Below are positions 1,432-11,607 of a DNA stretch of 52,041 nucleotides, in pieces. Position 1 is the first letter of the stretch, and every line of letters begins with the position of its first letter. The notes beneath the pieces were generated by a model. The model made no database searches. It was not told the origin of the DNA and saw only the letters and a list, made by a program, of their open reading frames with translations. A program made the position numbers and the translations under genes. Source of the DNA: Sulfurimonas sp. (GTDB lineage Bacteria; Campylobacterota; Campylobacteria; Campylobacterales; Sulfurimonadaceae); assembly GCA_027448805.1 (NCBI GenBank), contig DAIDMU010000072.1, positions 1-52,041 of the forward strand, given 5' to 3'.

Positions 1432-3249
1432 ATGAACGTAACAAAAGAGCAAGAAGAAAAGTTCAAAAAACTTGGGCTGGGCAGTTGCTGTGAACTTGCT
1501 CTTATTACCCCGTCCTCCTATGAAGATTTAAGAATCTCAGACAAGCTCCAAATTCATGCAATGGGGCTCATTGACGCTACTGTAGAGGCACTTTACAGAG
1601 CGCCAAATTCCCTTCAAGTTACATTTTTTGCTCATAATTTCGGACATGTTATTACGGGTGTTATATTTCGTCCAAAACCATATATGATGCATCAATTTAA
1701 AATTGGCGAGAGAGACTACTACTATGGAATGGTGGAGTGCAAGAGCGGTTTGTGCAGCATTAGCATGCCAAAAAAAGTTACAAACATCGGAGCGATTACA
1801 CCAAAATACAAATCTCCTCTAAGAAGCGACGTGATGCTCCGCCTGATGCAGAGTTCTCTAACAAAAGAGAATTTAGTCTCAGAGGGTTTAAATGAAGAGA
1901 TTGCAGAGGAGCTTTTAAAACTTCACTTTCCGAGCCAAAATATACCAAATTTAAGAGATTTAGAGCCAAAAACCATAAACGCGCTTAAATATACAGAGCT
2001 CTTTACCTATATGAAAAAACTATCAAATAAAAGAAGATATTTTAAAGCTTTATTTTCTACGTGTAACAGTTACGAAGAGTGGGCGAAAACACTTCCATTT
2101 AGCTTGACCCTTGAGCAGATAAAAGCTATTGAAGAGATAAAAGCAGATTTTTGCAAGGATATCTCAGCCAAACGAATGGTAGTCGGAGACGTGGGAAGCG
2201 GTAAAACAATGGTAATTCTTGCATCTGCACTGATGATGTTGCCAAACCGCTCTGTTTTAATGGCTCCGACGACAATTCTTGCAAATCAACTCTTTGTAGA
2301 GGCCAAAAAATTTCTACCTAATGTCAAAATTGCACTAGTCACAAACAAAAGCAAAAACATAAACCTTGAGGAGGACGATTTTATCATAGGCACTCATGCT
2401 CTGCTTTACAGAGAGCTCCCAAAAGCTGCTCTTGTAATGGCTGATGAACAGCACCGCTTTGGAACTGCTCAGAGAAATATGCTTGAAAAGTTGGTCAGTA
2501 AAGGCAGCCAAAAGCCGCATTTTTTGCAGTTCTCGGCTACGCCAATCCCTAGAACGCAGGCAATGATTGAGACGGCGCACATAGACGTTTCGCTTATCAC
2601 AACAACACCTTTTAAAAAAGATATAACAAGCAGAGTTATTCATAAGAGCGATTTTAAAGATTTACTGCTTCATATAGAGGATGAGATAGCTAAAAAAAAT
2701 CAAGTTCTTTTGGTCTATCCTCTTGTTGAGCAGAGCGATGTTTTAGAGTATCAGAGTATTGATGAGGCGAGAGGATTTTGGGAGAAAAATTTTAGCAACG
2801 TTTATGTTACCCATGGAAAAGACAAGGAGAAAGAGGAGGTTTTGCAAGAGTTTGACAAAAAAGGTGCTATTCTTATAGCTACTACGGTTGTAGAGGTCGG
2901 GATATCTCTGCCTAAACTTAGCACGGTTGTTGTCGTCGGTGCTGAGAGGTTAGGTCTTTCTACTCTTCATCAGCTTCGAGGTCGTGTTAGTCGTACCGGA
3001 CTTAAAGGACACTGCTTTTTATATACAAACCAGAGTTCATCAGAGCGACTTGATAGATTTACCAAAACGACAAGCGGCTTTGATATTGCAAATCTTGATT
3101 TGAAGTTTAGAAAGGGCGGTGATTTGCTAAAGGGACACAACCAAAGCGGAAGCCAGTTTAGGTGGATCGATTTGGCAGAAGATGAAGAGATAGTAAAATG
3201 TGTGAAAATGGATTTGCAAAGGGGAGCTGCCCCTTTGCATATTGATTAA
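1432..3249 (+). CDS. recG: ATP-dependent DNA helicase RecG
   Basis: Walker A VVGDVGSGKT, DEQHRFG box, QFSATPIPRT, QLRGRVSRTGLKGHCFL; short RecG. Confidence 0.93.
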   Translation: MNVTKEQEEKFKKLGLGSCCELALITPSSYEDLRISDKLQIHAMGLIDATVEALYRAPNSLQVTFFAHNFGHVITGVIFRPKPYMMHQFKIGERDYYYGMVECKSGLCSISMPKKVTNIGAITPKYKSPLRSDVMLRLMQSSLTKENLVSEGLNEEIAEELLKLHFPSQNIPNLRDLEPKTINALKYTELFTYMKKLSNKRRYFKALFSTCNSYEEWAKTLPFSLTLEQIKAIEEIKADFCKDISAKRMVVGDVGSGKTMVILASALMMLPNRSVLMAPTTILANQLFVEAKKFLPNVKIALVTNKSKNINLEEDDFIIGTHALLYRELPKAALVMADEQHRFGTAQRNMLEKLVSKGSQKPHFLQFSATPIPRTQAMIETAHIDVSLITTTPFKKDITSRVIHKSDFKDLLLHIEDEIAKKNQVLLVYPLVEQSDVLEYQSIDEARGFWEKNFSNVYVTHGKDKEKEEVLQEFDKKGAILIATTVVEVGISLPKLSTVVVVGAERLGLSTLHQLRGRVSRTGLKGHCFLYTNQSSSERLDRFTKTTSGFDIANLDLKFRKGGDLLKGHNQSGSQFRWIDLAEDEEIVKCVKMDLQRGAAPLHID

Positions 3250-3788
3250 TATAGCCCGAATCTTCCGTCGTTTCTTTTGTAAAGAACACGAGTTTTACCG
3301 TCGTTATCTATAAAGATTTCAAAGAGCTTTTTGTTCTCTTTTATATCGTTTAGAACATCTTCAACTTCGCGCGGTTTGTAAAGCGGGAGTTCGACAGGCA
3401 CAATCTCATCCTCCATAGCCTCGCTTGCCTCATGAAGATCCACATTTGCACTAGCCTCGCTCTTAGCTTCGTTTATCCCGTCTTTATGGTGGTTGTTGTC
3501 TTTGTCGTGCGTACGGCGCATAGCTTTTTGAGCTCTTGCAGTCGCCAAATCGATAGCCGCATAGAGGTCTTGGTCATTTTGTTTGATAACGATGGAATTT
3601 TTGTGAGCCAAGTTGATAACATACTCAACAACCGACTGCTCTTTTCCCTTTTTTGTTTGAGTTGATGCGATGACATTCACAGAAATAATGTCCATGTTGT
3701 ATTTGCTAAGTGTTTCGATAGATGAGTTCATATGAGCTTTGATAGGTTCTGTAAGCTCTAAATGTCGTCCTGTTAATGATATATTCAT
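3246..3788 (-). CDS. hpf: Ribosome hibernation-promoting factor, long form (HPF/RaiA)
   Basis: N-terminal MNISLTGRHLELTEPIKAHMNSSIETLSKY and C-terminal YKPREVEDVLNDIKENKKLFEIFIDNDGKTRVLYKRNDGRFGLY domain. Confidence 0.92.
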   Translation of the reverse strand: MNISLTGRHLELTEPIKAHMNSSIETLSKYNMDIISVNVIASTQTKKGKEQSVVEYVINLAHKNSIVIKQNDQDLYAAIDLATARAQKAMRRTHDKDNNHHKDGINEAKSEASANVDLHEASEAMEDEIVPVELPLYKPREVEDVLNDIKENKKLFEIFIDNDGKTRVLYKRNDGRFGLY

Positions 3789-3852: not shown

Positions 3853-4344
3853 TTAGAGTTTTTGGATGCTTCTTCTAAAGTAGTGAATTGGTTCTGCAGA
3901 AATGTTTGCATCGTCTCTTACACTTACCGTTATATCCATCAGTACCGAACCGTTTTGTTCGGGAGTCGTAATGTTAATATAGTTTGTACATCCGCCAACA
4001 GCCCCCGTATAAATATATTGCATAGTTACATTTGCGTCAAAGAGCGGATTTCCGCTGACATCGTCAAATGTGATATTTTTACTGTTGATACAGCCGTTTT
4101 GTGCAATATCTAAAAGTGTAAGTTCTGCCGCACTTTTTGAATACAACACGGCTTGTTCATAAAGATACAAGTCAGCTGTTCTTTTGCTTGTTTCGGCTGT
4201 TAAAGCCAGAGAAAGAGCCATAATTGTAGAGATTATTAAAATTACTATTATGGCAGTAATCATTGCAAAGCCTGAGCGTTTCTTTGCAAATCCGGTTCTT
4301 TTTTGGAGAGGATTGGTTTTTAGAATATAGTTTTTTCTTTGCAT
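3853..4344 (-). CDS. Prepilin-like protein lacking Glu5 (PilX/GspK/MshP-like minor pseudopilin)
   Basis: KKRSG|FAMITAIIVILIISTIMALSLAL: class III signal-like, no Glu at +5; overlaps the preceding pilin gene. Confidence 0.7.
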   Translation of the reverse strand: MQRKNYILKTNPLQKRTGFAKKRSGFAMITAIIVILIISTIMALSLALTAETSKRTADLYLYEQAVLYSKSAAELTLLDIAQNGCINSKNITFDDVSGNPLFDANVTMQYIYTGAVGGCTNYINITTPEQNGSVLMDITVSVRDDANISAEPIHYFRRSIQKL

Positions 4345-5213
4345 AACGAATAATCCTCCATCAAATCAGAATTTACACACACCTGTATTTTTACTATTGA
4401 CCCAACTGCCATGAATTGGAAAGTACTTACATCATTCATTATAACAGCACTTTTTCCATTTAAATAACTCTCTCCCTTCCACGGCTGATAATCATAGTAG
4501 AGCATAAGCGTACCTGTTTTTGTAGCAGCATTATAGTTTCTTATCCCAACAGCGTAGGCTGTCCATGCCAGTTGGTGGTACTCATAGATATTGGCACCGC
4601 TAAAATTCACTCCTGCTATTCCGGATGCAAACTGGTTTGGTTGACCCGCAACATCATTTATCGGGTGCATAACGCTGGTGTTATGATCACTTAAAGGTGT
4701 TCCACCTACCCAACCGTAATTATTTATATCGCTATCGGAGCCTATAAAGTAGAGAGCTGCATCGTCAATACCGCTGCCTCCATCTGATAGAGTACTTATA
4801 AGTGTATTAAGCGCTACTGTGTCTGTTCCTGGAGATACAAGAGTTGTAACATTTGAGAGGTCTAGATCAATTATCCCGCTCCAGTGCGGAAGCGTGCCAA
4901 CATTTCCTCTAAAGCCGTCTATCTCGGTTCCGACCCACTCTAAAATAGGAGCAGTATGGTCCGTATTGCTAGCGAGTGCCTGAAAGGAGTTGTCTAGCTG
5001 TCTTGCTATTACAGAATCTTTTATGCGGTACTGAAGTCTTGAAGCTATGGATTCTACTGCTGCCGCACTGTTTGACTGCAGAGCGTTATTTATGCTTGAA
5101 AATATAAAACTCTTATACGCCTGAGAGAGAAGTTCGACGCCATACTTACTAAGAATGCCAATAATGACTATAACAAATATAAGTTCAAGAAGTGTAAAGG
5201 CAGATTTACGCAT
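4320..5213 (-). CDS. Type IV prepilin-like protein (PilW/MshO-like minor pseudopilin)
   Basis: MRKSA|FTLLELIFVIVIIGILSKYGVELL N-methylation motif and hydrophobic helix. Confidence 0.8.
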   Translation of the reverse strand: MRKSAFTLLELIFVIVIIGILSKYGVELLSQAYKSFIFSSINNALQSNSAAAVESIASRLQYRIKDSVIARQLDNSFQALASNTDHTAPILEWVGTEIDGFRGNVGTLPHWSGIIDLDLSNVTTLVSPGTDTVALNTLISTLSDGGSGIDDAALYFIGSDSDINNYGWVGGTPLSDHNTSVMHPINDVAGQPNQFASGIAGVNFSGANIYEYHQLAWTAYAVGIRNYNAATKTGTLMLYYDYQPWKGESYLNGKSAVIMNDVSTFQFMAVGSIVKIQVCVNSDLMEDYSLCKEKTIF

Positions 5214-5836
5214 TAAAATCTCCTCTTATAAAAATCTATTTCGCCGATGTTAGCACTATATGTGCTTAAGAGAGTAATGGTATTTGGAGCCGCATCTGTT
5301 ATTGTAACCGTAATTCTTTTAACATTGTTATCTGCTGCTCCTGTTTCATTAAAATTTCCAACCGCTACAGTGCTATAGTAATTATTTTTATATCCAGCCG
5401 CATCTTTTGTGGCATCGGTAAAAATCAATTCGCTTCCATGAACAGCATTATTTAGATTTGGAAAAGTTGCATTTGAGGTGTTTGTAAGCCCAATTGCACT
5501 GCTGTCCAAACATCTTCTGTGGTATGGTTGATTCACATGTCCTAGTCTTAGTCTATCTCCATTACAAGATATACCTTCTACATCTATAACTCTCTCTAAG
5601 CGGCTGAGATTGTTGTCATACATTGAGTTTAAGTCCCAGTAGTACGACGTTGCACCCATTAACTCGGCAGAAGCAGCAAAGATAGCCTCTTGAGCTATGT
5701 TGTCTTCGATGCCTTTTGAGGTAATTTGAGCCATCATAGGAAGAGTGATAACGGCGATAGAGATAACAACAATGGCAAATATAAGCTCTATCATGGTAAA
5801 AGCAAATCTACCAAGAGCGGTTTTTCTACTTACCAC
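5213..5836 (-). CDS. Type IV prepilin-like protein (PilV/MshD-like minor pseudopilin)
   Basis: RFA|FTMIELIFAIVVISIAVITLPMMAQ N-methylation motif and hydrophobic helix. Confidence 0.8.
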   Translation of the reverse strand: MVSRKTALGRFAFTMIELIFAIVVISIAVITLPMMAQITSKGIEDNIAQEAIFAASAELMGATSYYWDLNSMYDNNLSRLERVIDVEGISCNGDRLRLGHVNQPYHRRCLDSSAIGLTNTSNATFPNLNNAVHGSELIFTDATKDAAGYKNNYYSTVAVGNFNETGAADNNVKRITVTITDAAPNTITLLSTYSANIGEIDFYKRRF

Positions 5837-8800
5837 ATTATTCTCCTGTTAGTAGTTGTTCCGCCTACGCTTTTTGTAGTGGTGTTGGTTTCATGCTCAC
5901 CAGTCCAGCCACCTGAAAGATCAAACTCAACTTGGAACTCGTTTGTCGTGGCATTTGGATTTGTTTCATTTTGTATAAGCCATGCAGAAGCTGTATTTTG
6001 CATTGTTGTTTTGTATGGGAAGCCATTGTTTCCGTCATATGTTAAAGTTGTTTGCGATGGGTTGGTTGCCGTCGGTCCGGTTGCCGTTACACGAACGGTA
6101 GTAGTTTTTTCGCTAACCGTACCTGCTGTTCCGTCATGAGGAACTGCGTGCGCCCCATTTACATACCATCTCACATCATCAGTTCTTGTAGAGTTTACCC
6201 CGTTTGGAAGCAGAGTTTTATTGCAAAGGGTTCCAAAACAAAAAGACTCAAAGTAGATGTTTGCAGTGCCTGTGTTTCCTTGATATCTCTGTCTTGAAGC
6301 GTGTGTGCGACCAAATAGATATGTGGCATTGTTATCTATGGAATTGTTACCGTCAACAAGGTCTGTATCAGTAACAACCATTTGAGGAATCGTCATCTGG
6401 AATGGGTTGACTGGAACTATTATACTTCTGTCAAAGTTAAGGCGATAGTTTAGGTTTCCTACTCCGCTTGTAAAACGAGCAGCAGGGTGTGGAAAACTAA
6501 ATGGACCGGCAATAGCAAAATTACCCACGACACTATTATTGTTATCATCATACCACAGCAACTGTGTCAAATCTCCAAGTGGTGGAGATGGATTTAATGT
6601 AATATTTAATACACTGTTTCCACTTTTTGCGTAACACTCGCTTGAGTAGTTTTGTGTAGTAGTATTTATGTCAAATGCTTTTGCGGTAACAACTGCATTT
6701 AAAGTCGCTGATATATCTTGATCTAAAGAGGCATTAGTATCAAAATTGTTTAGGTATGTAAACCCGTTTGAACCGTTCGCAAGAGTTCCGTTTACATCGA
6801 AATGGTCAGGTATAACCATAGGGTTAATAACAGTTTTTATTAAACAACCTATTTTGCCGTTTGCATCTGCAATATTTGTATCATCTTCATCAATACACTC
6901 AATCGGGTTTTTTGTACTGTCAACAGCTGTCCAAGTTGAGTCTGTTATATTGACATCAAAAACACCGACATCTCCAAACTTGATGTTGTTGGAAACATTT
7001 GTGTCAACACCGTTAAAAACTATAGCGTTGAAAGAAGTATCGGAAGAGTTTGTGAGGTTTCCATCAGGTACGGCACAGAGGTCTATCTGTGTTTGCGGTG
7101 CAACGGTAGCTATGCCGTTGTATCCGGTTAAGGCGGTGTTATTAAATCCTTTTGCTACAGTTGTTAAATCAAACTCTTGACCGGCTACAAGCGTTCCTCC
7201 TGGAGCAATTGCGGTTGTATAAGTATCTGGACGGATAGAAAAATTATCACTTGAACATCCATCCATACCCAGTGCATCAGCTAAACACATAGCACAACCG
7301 ATATCATTGTTGTATTTGCTTGGGCTTATTGTTGTTTTCTTACCACCACAGCTTCCGTTATATGCACTTGAATCACAAGGTGCTGCTCCTCCTCCATCAC
7401 CATATAAACAAGTAGCAACATACGGATACTCTGCAAGTGGGAAAACGTTTAAAATTTGTGTATCACTGTTTAGACACGCAGGAACTAGACATAAAGAACT
7501 ATCCAATGAACTAGTTGCACAATTTAAGTCGCTTGTATTGTTTATGAGTGTGCCATAATCAATAAAGTTTGCCTTTATTCTCCTATTTGGCGATGCTTTA
7601 GCAAGGAGGAAGCCTTCTTCTTCATCTGCGGTGTCAACATCAATATTATCCACAACGGCAGTAGCATGTGAATTGTTGTGCACTATTTGCCCTCGCCATA
7701 TAAGCTGGTCTTCTTCTGTACATGTGTTATCTGTAGTGTATAACATGACAGCCATATTAACTATTTTATTTCCTATAATACCGTTGTAAATTTGCTCATT
7801 TCCAGAAGTATCTAAATAAACGGCTTCTAAATTGAAATCTTTGTTTACCATTTTAGTAAAGATGTTTTTATCTGCTGCTGCGTATGAGCCGGCATTAGCA
7901 TAAGATGTGTTTTCAATAACATCCATATTTCCGACCACAATGGCTTGCGGAATAACTCCAAAAGTGTTATCAAATTCTTCACATTTTGCCAGCTCACCTT
8001 CATATCTGTACCCTATGGTTGGCATCGTGTATGCTATTTGGTAAGATATAGAGGTGTTTCCGTCAAAGTTTGCAGTGGTTGAGTACTCAAAAAGAGCCTC
8101 TTGTCCAAATGTAAAATCTCCGCCTTGGTTGTAAGTAGCTCCTGACCCTGTATGAAGAGAGAATAGCTTTAACGGTGTGCTATAGTCAAATATATCGCCG
8201 TCTAACAAATCTGTAAGAGGCGCTGTTGTGTCTGTCATCATGTCGGCAACCGTAAGTCCAATAGGGTTAAGTTTATAGCTCGTTGAGCTCGGTGTATATG
8301 GAAGACCTGTATTAAAAGTTCTATAAAGCATAACTTTTTCAGCAGGTTCGTTCATGTCGTTTCTTAATAAAACTCTTACATCAATAGCACTTCCTTTTGC
8401 TACAAGAGCGCCTGTTGTAAGTTCAACTCCACCAGAGTTGTAAAGTTTTTCATAGTAACACATTCTAGGGTGATAAACTTCGGTTGAAAATGCGAGCATT
8501 GAGGGGTAAAAATAGTCAATATCTCCCCCTGTCCAAAGCTTAAAGCTTATGCTGTTTTGAGAATTTGAAAGAAGATCCTTTCCTGTAGTTCCGATTTGGT
8601 ATGTTTCTATATCAATACCTTGATTATTGGTTAGCAAAGGAGTTCTTGTACCAGCTAATGAAATACTTGCATCAAATGCATTGTCAGAAGGAATGCCTAA
8701 ATCAACCCAACTGCCTCCATCCTGCGCTTGAAATCTATCACCACTACGGTATTTGTCACCCTCTGCAGCAAATATTGAAACTGCAGATTCAATACTTCCG

Positions 8801-10278
8801 GTTGTAGGTGTATAAAAATTATCTACAGTAATTGTTGCAGAAGTTGAAGAGGTAGAACCTGTAATCTTTTGCCATCCGTCATAAACAGAAACACTTTTAA
8901 GTGGTTTTGAAACATTCTCATATATGACAACCAATGACCATGCACCATATTTACCGATAACTGCAGTACCACCCTGAATAGTATCTGTTGTTACAGGAAC
9001 ATTCGCAATGGTATAAGTTCCATCTTTCCAGCTATTTGCAGTAAATTTACTTGTTACGTCAATGAAAGCTGAGTAATTATCATAGGCTGTTGAATTTGCA
9101 GTCGTATAGGAGCCATAATTGACTACATTGGGAGTTCCGACATCAACATAGCTTCCGTTATCCTTTTTCATTTTCACATTCATAGATGAAAGAGCTGAAG
9201 CATCGCTGTGCTTAACGACAGACTGCAAATATAGTCCAGCCCATTTGACTGTACTGCCGGCAGGAATACTTAGTTCGGCAGTAGTCGCATTGAGATTCGT
9301 ATCTGGTTTATAGCTACATAAATAAAGAGATTGATTATCCAGACCTGGTGTGTCCGCAAGAAAAGCACCGTTTGTGTAGCTGCTGCAATATGTTGTTTGA
9401 GTTGCTGATACTGGCTGAGGACTAGGTGGAACAACAAGGGTATTTCCGATTGTTACCATATCTCCAAACAAAACAGTTTGTTTTCTAAGACAAAAATTGC
9501 GTTCTGCATTTACAAGACCTGTTGCAGTACATGCTGAGCCGATACCTATCTGAAGTGTGCCTGTTGTTACTCCACCTCTTCCATCACTTACTGCATAGGT
9601 ATATTCATCCGTCTCTCCAGTAAAATAGCCGGGTGTGTAAGTAAACGCGCCATTAGCTGCGATGGTAAGAGAACCAAAACTTAGAGTAAAGGTTCCTGCG
9701 TTGGTAACACTTAAAGAGTCGCCGTCTAAATCAGAATCATTTGTCAGTACATTTCCGCTTACGGCTGTATGAGAAGCTGTATTAAAAAGGTCATTAACAG
9801 TAACAGGAGGGCGGTTGAGTGTTACACTTATGGCAGGGCTAATATTGTTAGCTAATACTATATCATCCGTGCCGCTAGTAGTAACTGAAGCGGTATTGCT
9901 AAATGTGACTGCACCTGCAACGACAGAAGTAGGAGCAGTCACATTCAATGCCAGCGATGTAGAGGTTCCTTTTTCCAGTTCTGCAAGTGAACATGTTACA
10001 GTTACAGGCGAGCCAACACCGCTACAACTCCAATCAGTTCCGTTTCCGCTTGTAAATGACATTCCAGATGGCAATGTGTCGGTAACATTAATACCTAACG
10101 CTTTAGTGCTAGCGGATAAATTTGTTACCGTTATTGTGTAAAACATGGCTGAAGCTTCATTGACTATAGCCGATGAAGCCGCTTTTGTTATACTTAAGTC
10201 AGCTTTCGCAGCTCCAAAGAGATAACTAGGAAACGACACTGTAAACAAGACAATTAAAAAAGAGCGAAAGAAATTCAT
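5830..10278 (-). CDS. Large secreted DUF11 / cadherin-like repeat protein, MshQ-like candidate adhesin
   Basis: Signal peptide MNFFRSFLIVLFTVSFPSYLFGAAKA; DUF11 segment (ADLSITKAASSAIVNEASAMFYTITVTN...); cadherin-like VSGNVLTNDSDLDGDSLSV...GAFTYTP; Cys-rich middle. GGAGG upstream of ATG at 10278, so start is 4 codons inside the supplied ORF. Confidence 0.8.
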   Translation of the reverse strand: MNFFRSFLIVLFTVSFPSYLFGAAKADLSITKAASSAIVNEASAMFYTITVTNLSASTKALGINVTDTLPSGMSFTSGNGTDWSCSGVGSPVTVTCSLAELEKGTSTSLALNVTAPTSVVAGAVTFSNTASVTTSGTDDIVLANNISPAISVTLNRPPVTVNDLFNTASHTAVSGNVLTNDSDLDGDSLSVTNAGTFTLSFGSLTIAANGAFTYTPGYFTGETDEYTYAVSDGRGGVTTGTLQIGIGSACTATGLVNAERNFCLRKQTVLFGDMVTIGNTLVVPPSPQPVSATQTTYCSSYTNGAFLADTPGLDNQSLYLCSYKPDTNLNATTAELSIPAGSTVKWAGLYLQSVVKHSDASALSSMNVKMKKDNGSYVDVGTPNVVNYGSYTTANSTAYDNYSAFIDVTSKFTANSWKDGTYTIANVPVTTDTIQGGTAVIGKYGAWSLVVIYENVSKPLKSVSVYDGWQKITGSTSSTSATITVDNFYTPTTGSIESAVSIFAAEGDKYRSGDRFQAQDGGSWVDLGIPSDNAFDASISLAGTRTPLLTNNQGIDIETYQIGTTGKDLLSNSQNSISFKLWTGGDIDYFYPSMLAFSTEVYHPRMCYYEKLYNSGGVELTTGALVAKGSAIDVRVLLRNDMNEPAEKVMLYRTFNTGLPYTPSSTSYKLNPIGLTVADMMTDTTAPLTDLLDGDIFDYSTPLKLFSLHTGSGATYNQGGDFTFGQEALFEYSTTANFDGNTSISYQIAYTMPTIGYRYEGELAKCEEFDNTFGVIPQAIVVGNMDVIENTSYANAGSYAAADKNIFTKMVNKDFNLEAVYLDTSGNEQIYNGIIGNKIVNMAVMLYTTDNTCTEEDQLIWRGQIVHNNSHATAVVDNIDVDTADEEEGFLLAKASPNRRIKANFIDYGTLINNTSDLNCATSSLDSSLCLVPACLNSDTQILNVFPLAEYPYVATCLYGDGGGAAPCDSSAYNGSCGGKKTTISPSKYNNDIGCAMCLADALGMDGCSSDNFSIRPDTYTTAIAPGGTLVAGQEFDLTTVAKGFNNTALTGYNGIATVAPQTQIDLCAVPDGNLTNSSDTSFNAIVFNGVDTNVSNNIKFGDVGVFDVNITDSTWTAVDSTKNPIECIDEDDTNIADANGKIGCLIKTVINPMVIPDHFDVNGTLANGSNGFTYLNNFDTNASLDQDISATLNAVVTAKAFDINTTTQNYSSECYAKSGNSVLNITLNPSPPLGDLTQLLWYDDNNNSVVGNFAIAGPFSFPHPAARFTSGVGNLNYRLNFDRSIIVPVNPFQMTIPQMVVTDTDLVDGNNSIDNNATYLFGRTHASRQRYQGNTGTANIYFESFCFGTLCNKTLLPNGVNSTRTDDVRWYVNGAHAVPHDGTAGTVSEKTTTVRVTATGPTATNPSQTTLTYDGNNGFPYKTTMQNTASAWLIQNETNPNATTNEFQVEFDLSGGWTGEHETNTTTKSVGGTTTNRRIMW

Positions 10279-10410: not shown

Positions 10411-11607
10411 TTATTTTTCTGGAACTAGCGTAGGAAAAAGAAACGATGCCATAGAAGCTCCGATTTTTAATCTGATTGGAGATGCTTTCGAATCTGATTC
10501 TATAAAATTTCGTTTCAGCAGCTCAGCTGTAACCCTAGATGCTGTTCTCTCTTTTATGTCTATGATTTGAGCAATTTTTCCTCTTTTACACTCGCCATTA
10601 AGCAGTAAATATTGAAATATCTTATTGCTATGTTTTGGCAAAGGTTCTATATCTAGCAGGCCGTCATCTGCTTTTTGAACAAATAACTCAATTTTTGATG
10701 AAAGAGCATCTAGTTTAAGGTGTTTACTCATAAAAAGTACTTGATCTAGCGAAATATCAAGCATAAAATTTACATACTCCTCCAAAGCCTTTGATGAGAG
10801 CGAACCTTTGCCATCAAATTGCCCTTGTTGTGGCATATCGGCAAGAGATAGGTATTTTTTATATTCTAGAGAATTTCTTGAAAGTCCGCGTGAGATGTTC
10901 CACATGCCGTAGCCACTCATGCCAATACTTATAAACGCCCCATCCAGTGCTAGTCTTGCAGCCCTGCCGTTGCCATCTAAAAACGGGTGTATCCACATTA
11001 GTCTATGATGCGATGATAGCGCATAAATCAGATTAAGAGCTTTGCTTGAGTTTAATGATTTATTATAAAGGTGCTCAAATTCGTTCATTAAACTTTCAAC
11101 CTTATCATAGCTTGGTGCTATGTGATTTCCAACTTTAACACTTTGCTTGCGGATAGCTCCAGGAACTATTACTCCTTCTAAATCATTATGTGCTACATGT
11201 AAAAATGGTTCCATGCCTTTTTTGCCATAAAAACTTTTGTGAATATTTAAAATAAACTCTTTGCTGTACGGTGAGCCATCAGGAGTGCTTTTAAAATAGT
11301 TTTCACACTCTTTTTGAACTTCTATGTGAGCAAGCGAAAGTATTTGCAGGTTTCTCTCTTTAGTGTCTTTAGAGTAGTCGTTTTGCATTGCTCTTTCTAT
11401 ATCTATGATGTGGGTGCCTTCCGATTCTATCTTGTTGGAGTAGTAGCTGTTGACTGTGTATAAAAGGTTTTTTACGGCTTGAATAATTTGAGTTGTATGC
11501 GTTCCCGTTAGTTTTGCACTTTGGATTAAAAGTTCATCAGCTTTGGATATCAGAGTAGAATTGATATTTCCGTTTATATCCGTAGGCGCTATCGGAGTGA
11601 AGTTCAT
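10411..11607 (-). CDS. Fic family protein (putative AMPylase) with C-terminal winged-helix-like region
   Basis: Fic motif HPFLDGNGRAAR; N-terminal SNKIES...ERAM segment typical of Fic inhibitory helix region; C-terminal KRGKIAQIIDIKERTASRVTAELLKRNFI helix-turn-helix. Confidence 0.92.
   Translation of the reverse strand: MNFTPIAPTDINGNINSTLISKADELLIQSAKLTGTHTTQIIQAVKNLLYTVNSYYSNKIESEGTHIIDIERAMQNDYSKDTKERNLQILSLAHIEVQKECENYFKSTPDGSPYSKEFILNIHKSFYGKKGMEPFLHVAHNDLEGVIVPGAIRKQSVKVGNHIAPSYDKVESLMNEFEHLYNKSLNSSKALNLIYALSSHHRLMWIHPFLDGNGRAARLALDGAFISIGMSGYGMWNISRGLSRNSLEYKKYLSLADMPQQGQFDGKGSLSSKALEEYVNFMLDISLDQVLFMSKHLKLDALSSKIELFVQKADDGLLDIEPLPKHSNKIFQYLLLNGECKRGKIAQIIDIKERTASRVTAELLKRNFIESDSKASPIRLKIGASMASFLFPTLVPEK

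Follow-up and report, generated by a model that had tools for sequence, protein, structure and literature searches.

The locus analyzed here consists of four mutually overlapping genes on the minus strand, in which the gene of a giant protein is followed by those of three prepilins, here referred to as V, W and X (Table 1). The window, that is, the whole stretch of DNA analyzed, covers 52,041 nucleotides of a Sulfurimonas genome. An earlier note had described the four genes as contiguous and overlapping and the giant as a secreted DUF11/cadherin-like protein of about 1480 residues, and both descriptions were borne out. The reading frame of the giant runs from an ATG at 10278, with GGAGG upstream, to a stop at 5830; the N-terminus is hydrophobic and signal-like, and both domains lie in the first 250 residues.

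Table 1. Features of the giant-prepilin locus and its surroundings (window positions).
Feature	Position	Strand	Details
Giant MshQ-like protein	5830..10278	-	1482 aa, signal-like N-terminus MNFFRSFLIVLFTVSFPSYLFGA
DUF11 domain, giant residues 27-147, in the variable head	9838..10200	-	Pfam E 8.5e-16
Big_9/cadherin-like domain, giant residues 155-244, in the variable head	9547..9816	-	Pfam E 2.8e-17
Giant middle region, beta-rich, common to many orthologues	7921..9528	-	alignment; AF2 mean pLDDT 67.7
Giant conserved C-terminal 480 aa: divergent DUF6701/MshQ-like, predicted all-beta, Ig-like domains	5833..7272	-	
AGGAGA Shine-Dalgarno of V within the last codons of the giant	5842..5847	-	
Prepilin V, MshD/PilV/GspI position, Glu5 present	5213..5836	-	
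Prepilin W, MshO/PilW/GspJ position, Glu5 present	4320..5213	-	
Prepilin X, MshP/PilX/GspK position, Glu5 absent	3853..4344	-	
hpf (ribosome hibernation factor), conserved neighbour, no pilus part	3246..3788	-	Pfam S30AE E 7.9e-16
Terminator-like stem-loop at the hpf/recG junction	3215..3239	-	10 pairs, both strands; consensus match only

V has a GTG start, 207 residues and the motif A^FTMIEL, while W has 297 residues with A^FTLLEL and lies slightly above the Pfam N_methyl cut-off. In both of them Pfam recognised the N-terminal pilin motif only. X, of 163 residues with a prepilin-like stretch G^FAMITA, starts at 4344 within the end of W. The GTG of V (5836) overlaps the stop of the giant (5832-5830), and by this overlap of start and ribosome-binding site the two genes appear to be translationally coupled. 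In nearly all orthologues, V is initiated from a ribosome-binding site and start codon that lie within the end of the giant gene (window 5830-5850), so that coding and regulatory sequence overlap. We considered the conserved C-terminal TNRR.MW of the giant as a docking signal and rejected it; its conservation is no evidence of docking, because in nearly every locus the codons also provide the AGGAGA site and the start codon of V. No minus-strand terminator-like site between X and hpf was among those listed, and hpf is possibly on the same transcript as the pilin trio.

The earlier note had assigned the three prepilins, in order, to the PilV/MshD, PilW/MshO and PilX/MshP types, and this assignment holds one-to-one against the complete MSHA-type operons of relatives. 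One such genome (G002) contains a full operon of giant, V2, W2, X2, MshC-like pilin, I, J, K, L, M, N, E and G, with two further MshA-like pilins beyond it. Profile matches extended over the full length for V-V2 (E 7e-33), W-W2 (1.5e-53) and X-X2 (2.5e-33), whereas mismatched pairs had little in common past the N-terminal helix. Against Aeromonas MshD, MshO and MshP the same assignment came top of the three, with weak and partly only N-terminal matches: with single sequences of A. caviae, W matched MshO over 75 columns (E 2.8e-7), X matched MshP over 60 columns (E 8e-5) and V matched MshD over 23 columns only. Moreover, Glu5 is present in 41/41 V and 41/41 W sequences and in 0/41 X sequences. 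In GspK the missing Glu5 marks the tip-most subunit. By analogy, X is probably the tip-most pilin, because it lacks Glu5 as GspK does.

Because the giant of the window has no direct match above the curated cut-off of DUF6701 (PF20419), we name it MshQ-like and not a DUF6701 member. Its orthologues in three genomes (G031, G046 and G010) do score above this cut-off, at the positions aligned with the window protein. We further compared by hhalign a profile of 36 window-type C-termini with five MshQ-position giants from complete MSHA-type operons, and obtained a probability of 100% (E 5.8e-49) over 430 columns. The match of the window profile to a piece of Aeromonas MshQ was weaker (86.6%, E 4.5e-6). 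The C-terminal piece of the gene in the mshQ place of A. caviae carries DUF6701 at nearly full length (E 6.3e-99); this gene is interrupted in its record, and the DUF6701 search took its pieces only. The interrupting reading frames are probably insertion elements. The record itself (NZ_AP026896.1 321339-362295, L161), 4.9 Mb long with the MSHA operon, is labelled as a plasmid and is chromosome-like. A search of plasmids for DUF6701-type relatives found none, and the literature searched contained no mention of DUF6701.

The model of the last 702 residues of the giant is mostly beta (mean pLDDT 76, pTM 0.66), and a fold search with it returned chains of Ig-like domains, nothing specific. For the C-terminal and middle models together, matches were generic Ig-like or weak, and TM-scores normalised by query length did not exceed about 0.2; the middle region gave no convincing fold match, and PDB sequence searches with the giant, middle region included, found nothing. 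A PilY1 identity was also considered and rejected, as the Pfam scan of the giant showed no PilY1 domain (PF05567) and the model is not a propeller. In the genome as a whole, a search for PilY1 gave no match, and neither did its controls. Thus, of the two kinships that the earlier note had put up for a search, that to DUF6701/MshQ stood, through orthologues and profiles, and no similarity to PilY1 was found.

The giants differ greatly in their front parts. Among 25 orthologous giants the Pfam domains vary and include He_PIG, Calx-beta, DUF11, Big_9/cadherin, PKD and HYDIN-like ones. In two close strains (G004 and G015) V, X and W are 100%, 99% and 98% identical, and the giants are 70% identical in the last 480 residues and 46% in the remainder before. 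For another pair (L069/L072), a sharp step near residue 1020 takes the identity from less than 50% to about 80%. Among 60 random pairs, the median identity is 55% for the last 75 residues of the giant, similar to the 49-58% of the pilins, and much lower for the remaining giant. Such a pattern agrees with an end used for docking and a head that is exposed and changes fast.

Homologues of the giant were found by protein search in 112 of the 135 genomes of the genus, and in 75 of the 79 of good quality. Conservation of the locus across Sulfurimonas, which the earlier note had left to be checked, was then evident from gene order: giant, V, W, X and hpf follow each other in all 39 orthologous loci from other Sulfurimonas genomes, mostly with recG and an opposite-strand peptidase gene next, the same as in the window. 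A second collection of 42 loci, largely from the same genomes, showed the same order wherever the contig was long enough. The conserved arrangement of the module is far beyond chance. Of 20 loci picked with the W profile from other groups of the phylum, 19 had a recognised V-W-X, 18 had hpf and 13 had the C-terminus of the giant; because of this difference outside the genus, the trio with hpf is the stabler unit and the giant varies more. V-W-X has no adjacent recognised giant in L164, L165, L169, L170 and L173, and, in other groups of the phylum, giants related to DUF6701 or to the window protein occur without adjoining V-W-X in L103, L104 (three in a row), L106, L107 and L113.

Three further observations concern the surroundings of the module. 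First, hpf comes after the pilin trio across the phylum (L050-L089, L162-L181), mostly on its strand but on the opposite one in a few cases (L115, L179); a link between attachment and dormancy is possible. Second, the Fic-domain gene upstream (10411-11607) is 94-95% identical in L076 and L139, which suggests a recent transfer of fic at this site, because the giants there are only about 28-41% identical. Third, in one locus of a metagenome assembly, present in both collections (L089 and L145), two frames make up the giant and W is truncated, by decay or sequencing error.

The earlier note had stated that the window holds no assembly genes and that the machinery would have to come from elsewhere. 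In agreement with this, the ATPase, peptidase and secretin matches of the genome, an incomplete draft (87.9% complete), are all on other contigs, together with further type IV pilus components. There are four T2SSE-type ATPases above cut-off, one prepilin peptidase (PilD, contig C85), two secretins and, on contig C13, two MshA-like pilins with N-terminal similarity only. ATPases of the PilT type are present in the genome. The module is on contig C72. Contig C103 carries MshL, an AAA protein in the place of MshM, a TPR protein in the place of MshN, MshE and MshG, and a further machine, on contig C121, comes complete with a secretin, an ATPase and pilins. The MshL of C103 scores 261.9 bits, above the NCBIfam MSHA cut-off of 250.2 bits, its MshE contains an MshEN domain (E 1.4e-15), and its ATPase and platform protein match the ATPase and GspF models strongly. 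MshL, MshE and MshG are homologous to those of Aeromonas, with a weak match (E 3e-7) between the AAA protein and the Aeromonas protein in the MshM position. A conserved 180-aa protein without a Pfam match (L013 2992-3531, contig C103) lies between MshN and MshE genus-wide.

The positions of the matches place the core about 0.95-1.5 Mb from the module in ten relatives with closed or nearly closed genomes. The gene order of the C103-type locus in these genomes is I-J-K-like, L, M, N, x, E, G, without any recognised pilin or giant gene. The best argument that core and module belong together, as a split MSH-type pilus, is this complementary gene content, because the core lacks what the module supplies. 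Two genomes (G006 and G034) have an MshL-type core and no detected module, and core and module are both absent from one good genus genome only (G025), too few for a test of co-loss. The MshL model was also considered as proof of MSHA by itself; this use is weakened, as the model is above cut-off in most genomes of the phylum (221/299), some of them from groups without full-length W.

Taken together, the module is likely an MshQ-D-O-P-like tip-and-initiation set of an MSHA (MSH) class type IV pilus, the remaining genes of which are scattered in the genome. PilD would cleave V, W and X, whose assembly in the inner membrane would follow the known order of GspI-J-K and PilV-W-X, with X at the tip, and would start a filament of the MshA-like pilins of C13. 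MshE and MshG would push this filament through MshL, the C103 machine being the one that we infer the module to use. The giant, exported separately via its signal peptide, would dock on the trio with its C-terminal Ig-like, DUF6701-related region and ride out at the pilus tip as a putative adhesin, its variable head displayed for surface attachment. Extension may be under c-di-GMP control, because MshE has an MshEN domain.

The main rival to this reading is a DNA-uptake pseudopilus, in which V-W-X would form the tip for a Cts-like competence machine on C103, with the giant as a DNA- or surface-binding add-on. Because the MshL model is unspecific in the phylum, the C103 core could be of the competence type, and its order of secretin, ATPase, X, E, F presumably resembles the Campylobacter cts cluster. 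The five trios without an adjoining recognised giant point the same way. However, the giant is nearly universal in the genus and coupled to V, homologous trios in complete operons accompany MshI-J-K, an MshC-like pilin and DUF6701-type giants, and C121 already offers a second machine with a secretin, ATPase and pilins of its own. We therefore regard DNA uptake as unlikely.

Less probable still is a type II secretion-like device, whose pseudopilus tip, formed by the trio, would expel the giant as a secreted effector and not carry it as pilus-tip cargo. Since some DUF6701-related giants stand apart from V-W-X, giants might be released or anchored by other means, and the trio has GspI-J-K-like features. 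A genome with MshA-like pilins and PilT-like ATPases, and one giant coupled to the trio, speak against this device, as does V. cholerae, where deletion of MshQ, a putative adhesin, lowers the number of surface MSHA pili and so links it to the filament, retraction having no need for MshQ (PMC7096442). That the module serves the C121 machine or is a remnant without any working machine is very improbable: the window has no core gene and the draft is incomplete, but C121 has its own pilin-type genes, and open frames and motifs are kept across the genus and beyond, contrary to decay.

Returning to the MSH-type pilus, we tentatively consider a bolder version, for which the odds are rather poor: one pilin-free MSH-type core might be served by separate plug-in tip modules, each a conserved trio and a giant that changes fast, its head exchanged for another even between close strains, with orphan MshQ-like giants possibly exchanged onto the same filament.

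MSH systems have already been detected in Epsilonproteobacteria, their genes almost exclusively in a single locus without a peptidase of their own, and the model of that study counts MshM and MshA, too, as mandatory (PMC6668835). MshQ is one of the MSHA components whose function is listed as unknown (PMC9815625). Literature searches that combined Sulfurimonas with MSHA or pilus terms brought up no paper on a pilus of this kind. Occurrence of MSH systems in Epsilonproteobacteria as such is thus known; added here are the homology evidence, the location of the core and its lack of pilins, the Q-first order, the head replacement and the firm link to hpf. An MSH pilus can apparently be split, with its tip genes at a fixed separate place, and therefore locus-based searches can miss or misname MSH systems. 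The phylum is also rich in natural giants that share a conserved base, carry differing heads and stand beside near-identical pilins, which makes it testable which part docks to the pilins and which part binds to surfaces.

The module can be compared with four known systems. First, minor pilins capped by the modular PilY1 are an established parallel (PMC10191384), and PilY1/PilC with PilV-W-X of T4aP is, by analogy, similar in that a large modular protein is exported, varies in its adhesion modules and caps a set of minor pilins; the giant here, however, has no PilY1 domain, and its model is Ig-like and not a beta-propeller. Second, the GspI-J-K tip of the T2SS pseudopilus shares a third member without Glu5. 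V, W and X match the T2SS families by the N-terminal pilin motif only, and here an MshQ-like giant is attached and the genome has PilT-like ATPases and MshA-like pilins. Third, the MSHA pilus of Vibrio, Aeromonas and Shewanella shares three minor prepilins in I-J-K order, a giant with DUF6701-related C-terminus, a core of likely MshL-M-N-E-G type and a locus without prepilin peptidase, as in all MSH loci (PMC6668835). It differs in that the module here adjoins hpf and is detached from its core, so that the single-locus feature is absent, and in that the giant comes first and not last, with a C-terminus too diverged for the DUF6701 model. The earlier note had remarked on this position of the giant; it does come first, but the order is not odd, since Q-D-O-P-C-I-J-K-L-M-N-E-G is the usual operon order in this phylum. 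Fourth, the complete MSHA-type operons (G002: L070 with L118; G162: L105; G342: L112) have giant, pilins, MshC-like pilin and I-to-G core clustered where these are split here, and their giants end in RGV..R instead of TNRR.MW. They nevertheless contain a homologous giant, V, W and X in the same order Q-D-O-P, and one such operon is present in the same genus.
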